NCBI GenBank assembly: GCA_035759705.1
Contig: DASTUJ010000014.1
Location: 1 to 41,696, forward strand
DNA: 41,696 nucleotides
Source of the DNA: Actinomycetota bacterium
GTDB taxonomy: Bacteria > Actinomycetota > CADDZG01 > JAHWKV01
Direction of reading: 5' to 3'
Within the stretch, counting starts at the first letter, position 1. Each line of letters begins with the position of its first letter. Positions 2,440 to 41,696 of this stretch are shown in pieces. The position numbers and the translations under genes were made by a program. The notes beneath the pieces were generated by a model. The model was not told where the DNA came from, made no database searches, and was given only the letters and a program-made list of their open reading frames with translations.

Positions 2440-3687
2440 CTAAACGAGCTTCTGACCCTTGCCGATGACCACCACACCGTTGCTGGAGACGGTGAAGCGT
2501 TCGGCATCGGCCACCGGGTCGCAGCCGATCCGGTAGCCGGGTGGGATGCAGACATTCTTGTCGATGATCGCGTTGCGGACCACGGCGCCCTGCCCCACGT
2601 CGACCCGATCCATCAGGACGCAGCCGTCCACCTCCGCTCCGGTGTGCACAAAGACCCGGGCGGAGAGGATCGACCTGCGCACCGTAGCGCCCGAAACAAT
2701 GGCGCCCTCGCTGACCAGGGAGTCCAGCGCCATGCCCCGCCGGCCCTCCTCGTCGAACACGAACTTGGCCGGGGGGAGCGGCTGGTGCCAGGAGTAGATC
2801 GGCCAGTGCTCGTTGTACAGGTTGAAAACCGGGTGGACCGACACCAGGTCCATGTGCCCGTCGTAGTACGAGTCCAGGGTCCCGACGTCCCGCCAGTAGC
2901 CCCGCTCCCGGTCGGTGGTTCCGGGTACGTCGTTGGCGTCGAAGTCGTACACGGCCGCAACCCCGTCGTTGGCCAGCATCGGGATGATGTCCCCGCCGAC
3001 GTCGTGCTTGCTGCGGGGGTCCTCGGCGTCTCGCACGAGGGCGTCGACCAGCGCCTCGGTCGAAAAGATGTAGTTGCCCATGGAGGCCAGAACCTTGCCC
3101 GGTGAGTACTCGAGACCGGTCGTGTCACTCGGCTTTTCGACAAACCGGCGAATGCGGTGGTCGGGCCCGGCGTCGATGATGCCGAGGGCGTGGGCTTCGG
3201 AGGAAGGGACCGGTATGCCGGCCACCGTGACGTCGGCGCCGGAGGAGATGTGCTCCGCCAGCATCTGGCTCGGGTCCATCCGGTAGATGTGGTCGGCGCC
3301 GAAGACGTAGATGTAATCGGGGTTCTCGTCGCGGATCAGGTTGAAGTTCTGGAAGATGGCGTCGGCGGATCCGGAGAACCAGTGGGGGCCCCGCCGCATC
3401 TGAGCTGGCACGCAGGTGACGTAGCCGCCCAGCAGGGACGACATGCGCCAGGTCTGGGCGATGTGCCGGTCCAGGCTGTGGCTCTTGTACTGGGTCAGCA
3501 CTGCGATCCGACGGTTGCCGCCGTTGACCAGGTTGGACAGCGCGAAGTCGATCAGCCGGTAGTTGCCGGCAAACGGGACCGCCGGCTTGGCGCGGTCGGC
3601 GGTAAGGGGAGCGAGCCGCTTCCCCTCACCCCCGGCCAGGACGATGGCGAAGACGCGCTCGCGCGCCTGCGCCTCTCTAATTGCCAG
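2440..3687 (-). CDS. glgC: Glucose-1-phosphate adenylyltransferase, start codon uncertain
   Basis: This enzyme makes ADP-glucose from ATP and glucose-1-phosphate. The protein contains the nucleotidyltransferase signature [18 protein letters not shown], then [32 protein letters not shown], and a C-terminal left-handed beta-helix (residues about 300-415) ending GKGQKLV. The first conventional in-frame start is GTG at 3501, but that would remove the catalytic GGEGKR loop, so translation must begin upstream. Between the in-frame stop and this motif there is no ATG, GTG or TTG. Candidates are CTG at 3687 (5 bases after GAGGA) and ATT at 3681. Alternatively, ATG at 3709 or 3703 would join the frame if one base were missing from the GGGG run at 3687-3690. 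The coordinates given use the CTG. Full length would be about 415 residues, as expected. Confidence 0.85.
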
Positions 3688-37514: not shown

Positions 37515-37590
37515 GCGGACGTGGCTCAGTTGGTAGAGCATCACCTTGCCAAGGTGAGGGTCGCCAGTTCGAATCTGGTCGTCCGCTCCA
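37515..37590 (+). tRNA. tRNA-Gly(GCC)
   Basis: The 76-base sequence folds into a standard cloverleaf: acceptor GCGGACG/CGTCCGC, D-stem GCTC/GAGC, anticodon stem TCACC/GGTGA with loop TTGCCAA (anticodon GCC at positions 34-36), T-stem GCCAG/CTGGT with TTCGAAT, discriminator T and an encoded CCA. GCC reads GGC and GGU glycine codons, which dominate in this genome. TAGGAT at 37499-37504 is a likely -10 element. Confidence 0.97.
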
Positions 37591-40837: not shown

Positions 40838-41353
40838 CTAGCGCACCCAGCCGGTGTATCGCTGCCCGCCCGGGGGGCTTCGACGCCGGGTGCGGCGCTC
40901 GTCACCCGGTTCGAGGGAGGCCGACAGAGCCCTGACGAGCCAGGCGTTGACCGAAAGCCGGTCCCGCGCGGCCGCCTCCTCGATACGCAGCTTGAGCTGC
41001 TCGGGGAGTCGAAGCGTCATGCGGGAGGTTCCTCCGTCGCCCGTATCGCCCACCGGCGACGGGGTTTCGGTCGTCGGGACCTCGCCCGAGCCCTCGAAGG
41101 AGTCCGGCGGGGCCGGCTGGGTCACGACGAACTCGGGGTCCCGTCCCCGAAGGCGGAGGTCGACCGAGCCGGGTGCGATCTCCCTGGTGATTTCGTTTGC
41201 CGCGTCCGACAGGACCTCCAGAAGGACAAGCCGGCTTGCGGATTCAAGCGGCGCGATGAGGCGCTGGGCGATGGCCCGGGCCTCGTCGCCGCCCATCTCA
41301 GCGGCGGTCATCAACTCCCGGTGGAGGCTCTCGATGTATGACGTAAGGTTCAT
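40838..41353 (-). CDS. Ribbon-helix-helix (RHH) transcriptional regulator
   Basis: The 171-residue protein has an acidic helical N-terminal domain (1-65), a Pro/Thr-rich linker (about 75-107), and a C-terminal RHH DNA-binding domain (SRMTLRLPEQLKLRIEEAAARDRLSVNAWLVRALSASLE, about 109-147) followed by a basic tail. The layout resembles HicB-like or Arc-like repressors. It heads the operon with DUF4097 and the ABC exporter, so it probably controls that exporter and itself through the sites around 41363-41403. ATG 41353 coincides with the predicted transcription start. Confidence 0.8.
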   Translation of the reverse strand: MNLTSYIESLHRELMTAAEMGGDEARAIAQRLIAPLESASRLVLLEVLSDAANEITREIAPGSVDLRLRGRDPEFVVTQPAPPDSFEGSGEVPTTETPSPVGDTGDGGTSRMTLRLPEQLKLRIEEAAARDRLSVNAWLVRALSASLEPGDERRTRRRSPPGGQRYTGWVR

Positions 41354-41359
41354 GGCACC

Positions 41360-41403
41360 ATAGTGACGTCACAATGACGTCGTGTCAAGTCAAACCGACG
41401 TCA
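41360..41403 (-). promoter_or_regulatory. RHH-operon promoter with phased GACGTC operators
   Basis: On the minus strand TTGACA (41388-41383), a 17-bp spacer and CACTAT (41365-41360) place the start site on the ATG at 41353, so the mRNA is probably leaderless. Three GACGTC-centred elements overlap or flank it: GTGACGTCAC (41363-41372, a perfect palindrome), ATGACGTCGT (41374-41383) and CGACGTCA (41396-41403). Their centres are 11 and 21 bp apart, close to one and two helical turns. A fourth TGACGT lies inside the gene at 41339-41344, out of phase. Confidence 0.6.
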
Positions 41404-41448
41404 GAAGGTGTTAGGAGGAGTTCGAGAAATCTTTTGATGTCGAATTGC

Positions 41449-41475
41449 TTGAAACCCCGGTCTTGGGTGTATCCT
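41449..41475 (+). promoter_or_regulatory. Putative promoter of the edge RNA
   Basis: TATCCT (41470-41475) is a good -10 element. TTGAAA (41449-41454) with a 15-bp spacer or TTGCTT (41445-41450) with 19 bp could be the -35; neither spacing is ideal. Transcription would begin at about 41480-41482, where the first helix of the folded region begins. Confidence 0.45.
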
Positions 41476-41479
41476 GGAT

Positions 41480-41696
41480 GTCCGCCCCGGCGTCTTTTTA
41501 GCGTCTTTCCTTGGCTGATGCTAAATCCAAGAGTCGCCTCGAACGTGCCCCCGCACCGTTCGAGGCGGCCGGGGCGGACTAAACCCCTTTACTCCTCCCT
41601 CATGGCCCAAATGTTCGAAGTCGGCGCGTAGAGGGAAGGTCTCTCATAGGACTTATCGAGCCGGGACCACGGCCGAGTTAACAGCAGTGGGCTGTT
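41480..41696 (+). ncRNA. Candidate structured RNA or riboswitch-like leader, continuing past the window
   Basis: GTCCGCCCCGGC (41480-41491) is perfectly complementary to GCCGGGGCGGAC (41568-41579) and would close an 88-100 base domain. Inside lie a hairpin of 14 pairs, CGCCTCGAAC+GTGC with GCAC+GTTCGAGGCG (41535-41567, one bulged C), and a possible H-type pseudoknot: TTTAGC (41497-41502) with GCTAAA (41520-41525), and CTTGG (41510-41514) with CCAAG (41527-41531). At the window edge AACAGC/GCTGTT (41680-41696) starts another hairpin, perhaps a terminator. There is no matching gene; a short frame MAQMFEVGA at 41602-41631 lacks a ribosome-binding site. I do not recognise the RNA class. Confidence 0.5.

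Follow-up and report, generated by a model that had tools for sequence, protein, structure and literature searches.

At the right-hand end of a contig from an Actinomycetota bacterium, a perfect helix begins a few bases after a promoter-like element, which raises the question of whether a folded RNA is encoded there and what it does for the gene that follows beyond the contig end. The window analysed here is the complete contig (C14, 41,696 bp) of genome G000, and it was compared mainly with a sister genome of the same genus (G003) and with a genome from another genus of the same family (G005). The original prediction, made from the sequence of the window, was of an unrecognised folded RNA over 41480-41696, transcribed from about 41480 and riboswitch-like with a possible pseudoknot.

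A closed two-hairpin domain

Positions 41480-41579 form a closed two-hairpin domain with a folding energy of −63.3 kcal/mol (z = −8.6); 200 dinucleotide shuffles gave −34.8 ± 3.3 kcal/mol, and not one was equally stable (0/200). The G003 copy is also far more stable than its shuffles. The perfect 12-bp helix of the original prediction and the hairpins that it encloses are thus present in the sequence (Table 1). The remaining 117 nt (41580-41696) fold like shuffles (z −0.85) and are poorly conserved except for short blocks, so that the clearly structured unit is 41480-41579 rather than the whole of 41480-41696. A possible second hairpin in the remainder is not significant when folded alone (z −1.7 and −0.8); hand alignment on CCAAATGTTC gives about three pairs changed on both sides between G000 and G003, which is suggestive only.

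No Rfam 15 family reached its gathering cut-off for 41480-41579, the sole match at gathering score in the whole window being a tRNA-Gly at 37515-37587, and a permissive scan of the domain returned one snoRNA model at a chance-level E of 8.1. These two scans bear out the expectation that the domain would match no known riboswitch. Two other stable RNAs were considered and set aside: SRP RNA (RF00169) is found elsewhere in G000, G003 and G005, and the domain is branched rather than the rod of 6S RNA (RF00013), for which no match was obtained in these three genomes with a model that also misses the control actinobacterium.

Table 1. Features at the right-hand end of the window and in the adjoining sequence.
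Feature	Position	Strand	Remarks
Divergent ribbon-helix-helix (HicB-like) gene; neighbour, outside the RNA	40838..41353	-	Pfam HicB E 8e-6
Conserved promoter block, -10 TATCCT at 41470-41475, -35 weak	41440..41475	+	23/36 ungapped identity, L010:10066-10101
Structured RNA domain: closing helix and two hairpins	41480..41579	+	z -8.6; 94.1% identical to G003:C1:15107-15207
P1 closing helix, 5' strand	41480..41491	+	perfect 12 bp with 41568-41579; one pair U.U in G003
P1 closing helix, 3' strand	41568..41579	+	perfect 12 bp with 41480-41491; one pair U.U in G003
Left hairpin, 11-nt loop UUUCCUUGGCU at 41506-41516	41493..41532	+	main stem and loop unchanged between the genomes
Right hairpin, CCCC loop at 41549-41552	41535..41567	+	one difference, A-U to G.U, pairing kept on +
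Possible second hairpin, CCAAATGTTC (41607-41616) in loop region	41594..41639	+	CCAAATGTTC identical in G003
TCCTCCCT, perfect 8-nt complement of the downstream gene's Shine-Dalgarno sequence (AGGGAGGA, C212:2-9)	41593..41600	+	

Conservation of the domain in the sister genome

A search of 61 genomes returned one strong match to the domain, in G003, with 94.1% identity over 101 columns and with BLAST match bounds that are exactly those of the domain. As a nucleotide yardstick, the downstream gene is 72.8% identical between G000 and G003, and the 80 nt upstream of the domain are about 49% identical in a gapped alignment, whereas the stable RNAs of the two genomes reach 98% (SRP RNA, 97/99), 98.6% (tRNA-Cys) and 100% (tRNA-Val). 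No 100-column window within the downstream gene exceeds 81% identity. Within the 4.3 kb of the comparison, conservation close to that of the domain occurs in windows at index ~2220 and 3247-3422, corresponding to ~1905 and 2930-3180 of contig C212; these comprise tRNA-Cys (1911-1982), tRNA-Val (3107-3181) and coding sequence just before tRNA-Val. The domain is nearly as well kept in the sister species as the stable RNAs of the genus. Taken together, the strong fold, the negative Rfam result and a conservation far above that of neighbouring coding DNA uphold the reading of the locus as an unrecognised folded RNA at a promoter.

Six columns differ between the two copies. Two of them make up one pair of the closing helix, changed from G-C to U.U, and one changes an A-U pair of the right hairpin to G.U; the remaining three, including a 1-nt insertion in G003, fall in the left hairpin, on its bulged 3' side (41523-41528), the only part of that hairpin to vary, while its nine-pair core stem and 11-nt loop are unchanged. 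There is no compensatory pair within the domain, and two near-identical sequences from one genus allow no meaningful covariation test, so that conservation of the fold here means conservation of the sequence. Of the two signs of a functional RNA that relatives were expected to provide, conservation is found in G003 and covariation is beyond the reach of two sequences. The insertion, which lies within a near-identical stretch, shifts all reading frames and argues against conserved coding; a protein-coding leader or uORF was rejected for this reason.

The A-U to G.U change keeps its pair on the plus strand only and hence favours this strand, a point that bears on whether the element acts as RNA or as DNA. 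The domain is also a 100-bp imperfect palindrome with unlike left flanks in G000 and G003, and its minus strand folds almost as well as the plus, features that would suit a palindromic site for recombination or protein binding, the relic of a mobile element, or a terminator. We consider such a DNA-level element very improbable, since the strand preference of the substitution is joined by a single copy per genome, no match to phages and chance-level matches only to plasmids, and since in both genomes the domain adjoins the promoter block and precedes the same gene. A repeat or mobile element was rejected on the copy number (one in G000 and one in G003), and a terminator because the upstream gene in G000 is divergent, leaving no co-oriented gene that would need one, and no U-tract follows the domain.

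Distribution of the RNA

Wider searches added no further member. Within the class (24 genomes), a covariance model made from both copies matched only G000 and G003; a search of 296 genomes from the phylum gave one more, weak match in G228 (E 0.009) that is without the common loop sequence and looks like chance, and nothing convincing was found with the model at distant homologues of the downstream gene (best E 0.28). In a scan of 84,980 species genomes for the exact 18-base loop pattern, G003 was the only true relative (record JAUJPC010000006.1, Actinomycetota bacterium isolate YX3bin35), all other sites among the 23 in the genome collection being judged as chance from their flanking sequence. 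One match to the loop pattern in a viral contig was likewise chance, and neither a longer loop pattern nor the pattern of the right hairpin had a match in viral contigs. Within the reach of these searches, the RNA seems to be restricted to the genus of G000 and G003.

Promoter and transcription start

The −10 element TATCCT of the original prediction is in the sequence, and the same TATCCT ends a 36-nt block shared with G003; no other of the 39,730 offsets in a 20-kb G003 region gives as high an ungapped identity. The block has no match to a consensus sigma-70 promoter. TATCCT fits TANNNT, the preferred −10 of M. smegmatis (PMC6448022). From the shared block and this fit we soundly infer transcription from about 41480-41483. 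The promoter block thus agrees with the predicted start at about 41480, but with a start at exactly 41480 the spacing from the −10 element would be only 4 nt (6 nt in G003), so that +1 may lie 1-3 nt later.

The gene downstream and its leader

The gene beyond position 41696 was looked at through G003 and through contig C212 of G000 (locus L054), and it encodes a 291-aa protein. In the G003 region that holds both RNA and gene (L010), the RNA lies ~205 nt ahead of the gene (L010:10414-11289), and the G000 orthologue, 79% identical, starts at base 15 of C212 (L054 15-890). When aligned to G003, C14 and C212 leave an estimated gap of ~15-20 nt, and C14 most likely continues into C212. With the RNA ahead of the gene in G003 and the orthologue at the start of C212, the most likely place of the RNA is the 5' leader of the 291-aa gene, with which it would be co-transcribed; both the contig join and this placement are deduced from sequence. 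The stretch between the domain and the start codon is ~140-205 nt long and poorly conserved, and the G003 leader carries, just after the domain, a perfect 20-nt tandem duplication, ATCCTCTGGACTCCTATCCA (L010 10214-10254), which is absent from G000. In G005, the same gene has an upstream space of 104 nt and no such RNA. Only 3' parts of the gene are assembled in G001 and G002, so that absence of the RNA there is not informative. In four genomes the assembly is interrupted within this gene or just ahead of it (G000:C212, G001:C84, G002:C129, and G005:C339 and C42), perhaps because the region is difficult to assemble or varies between strains.

Searches of Pfam, NCBIfam and PDB gave no match for the 291-aa protein; distant homologues are present in other actinobacterial families (relatives L066-L076). 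The gene is followed by an ORF for a membrane-like peptide and then by a gene for an ACT-domain protein. The peptide ORF has 32 codons and lies directly after the 291-aa gene (L054 899-997, L010 11298-11396; (L)VKLIKWTAIGWLVWCGWLVFRDNVWATYKPG); it differs at three positions between G000 and G003, is better conserved than the 291-aa protein, and probably encodes a small membrane peptide.

On the other side of the RNA, the ribbon-helix-helix gene of G000 has no match in G003, where the upstream neighbour is an S8 protease. The case for a cis-acting leader rests mainly on this contrast, seen in two genomes: the downstream gene accompanies the RNA in both, whereas the upstream neighbour is different. 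TGACGT/GACGTC repeats at 41360-41403, ahead of the divergent ribbon-helix-helix gene, are likely an operator for the product of that gene.

The same arrangement bears on the main rival to the leader reading, an independent small RNA gene that would use the same promoter, terminate behind either the domain or the second hairpin, and act in trans through its loops. Conservation drops sharply at 41579, the element has its own promoter and is single-copy, and it displays single-stranded C- and U-rich loops, such as UUUCCUUGG, that could face Shine-Dalgarno-like sequences. However, neither genome has a terminator-like site at the end of the domain, and the RNA keeps its place by the downstream gene though the upstream gene differs. 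In a genome-wide search for near-perfect copies of the full loop complement AGCCAAGGAAAGA (at most one mismatch), each genome yielded, besides the RNA itself, a single site at chance level, a number that does not exceed the control. We regard a small RNA of this kind as rather unlikely.

Predicted masking of the Shine-Dalgarno sequence

In the predicted leader structures the domain stays folded and the Shine-Dalgarno sequence of the 291-aa gene is buried by linker sequence. It is predicted to be 95-97% paired in both leaders (unpaired probability 0.05 in G000 and 0.03 in G003), and few shuffled linkers masked it as well (2/100 and 3/100, respectively). In G000, TCCTCCCT is predicted to bury it at assumed gaps of 8, 18 and 28 nt between C14 and C212, a pairing incompatible with the local second hairpin. 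In G003 the Shine-Dalgarno sequence is masked by other bases, the exact TCCTCCCT partner is not conserved, and a plain duplex between leader and Shine-Dalgarno sequence is no stronger than in shuffles. The modelled TCCTCCCT pairing, which is without a G003 equivalent, is kept as a lead only, whereas burial as such is predicted for both leaders.

A maskable Shine-Dalgarno sequence, together with a 5' position, a compact junction and strong sequence conservation, would suit a metabolite riboswitch, in which a small molecule bound by the domain would switch expression of the gene. The long, GC-rich closing helix of 12 bp, however, is not expected to open or exchange strands, which makes it an implausible switch; the predicted leader structures show no alternative fold that would compete with the domain, and hence no expression platform exclusive with it, and no known aptamer matches in Rfam at either stringency. 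The proposed pseudoknot (CTTGG/CCAAG) fails in G003, where the second strand is CAAAG and the C to A change breaks a central G-C pair; its CCAAG strand also competes with UCUU/AAGA pairs of the minimum-energy fold. With the pseudoknot broken, the altered closing pair (U.U) not compensatory and no ligand or terminator switch visible, the description of the element as riboswitch-like with a pseudoknot is not supported. We consider a metabolite riboswitch improbable, and the label is unproven.

Discussion

The best reading of these data is that the RNA is a real, new, lineage-restricted structured leader RNA. Whether its domain is a 5' structured platform in the leader of the 291-aa mRNA, tuning translation in conjunction with a buried ribosome-binding site, is evenly balanced in our judgement. 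In such a leader, 41480-41579 would be the 5' end of a long (~250-300 nt) transcript portion ahead of the gene, whose GC-rich closing helix would fold once transcribed and present two hairpins, one of them with the invariant 11-nt loop. The constitutively folded domain could then serve as a platform for a putative protein or RNA partner and could also shield the 5' end of the mRNA, the platform tuning translation while the ribosome-binding site is buried in the rest of the leader. Its role is probably that of a binding platform or a 5' stabiliser. More tentatively, and with somewhat less confidence than in the platform itself, the RNA may represent an undescribed leader class, restricted to one lineage of uncultured actinobacteria, in which the invariant loop, held on a GC-locked, non-switching junction, controls the operon, with the ribosome-binding site masked downstream.

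The domain can be set beside several known systems. 6C RNA is an actinobacterial small RNA with two stem-loops that contain six or more C; our RNA, likewise GC-rich and actinobacterial, also has a hairpin loop with C, but it has no Rfam match, one CCCC loop and an outer 12-bp closing helix. The ompA mRNA of E. coli has a 5'-terminal stem-loop that stabilises it, and the very stable helix described here similarly begins at +1 or a few bases from it, although stability alone would not explain the invariant 11-nt loop and a conservation near that of stable RNAs. Weinberg et al. (2010, PMC2864571) list the Actino-pnp, msiK, mraW and pheA motifs in actinobacteria. Like the restricted orphan cis-regulatory motifs of that study (PMC2864571), the RNA is structured, has its own promoter, lies ahead of an actinobacterial gene and has no known ligand; unlike them, it matches no Rfam family and is represented by two sequences from one genus, with no covariation support. 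It thus belongs to no described Rfam family but to a kind that is already known, that of narrowly distributed structured leader and small RNAs (PMC2864571), and the evidence so far points to no unprecedented mechanism.

A fold call made from a single sequence at the edge of a contig could in this case be checked with one sister genome. The finding adds a structured RNA that is absent from family libraries, in a lineage known here from draft and metagenome-assembled genomes only, and because the RNA is tied to a concrete candidate target gene, its role is testable.
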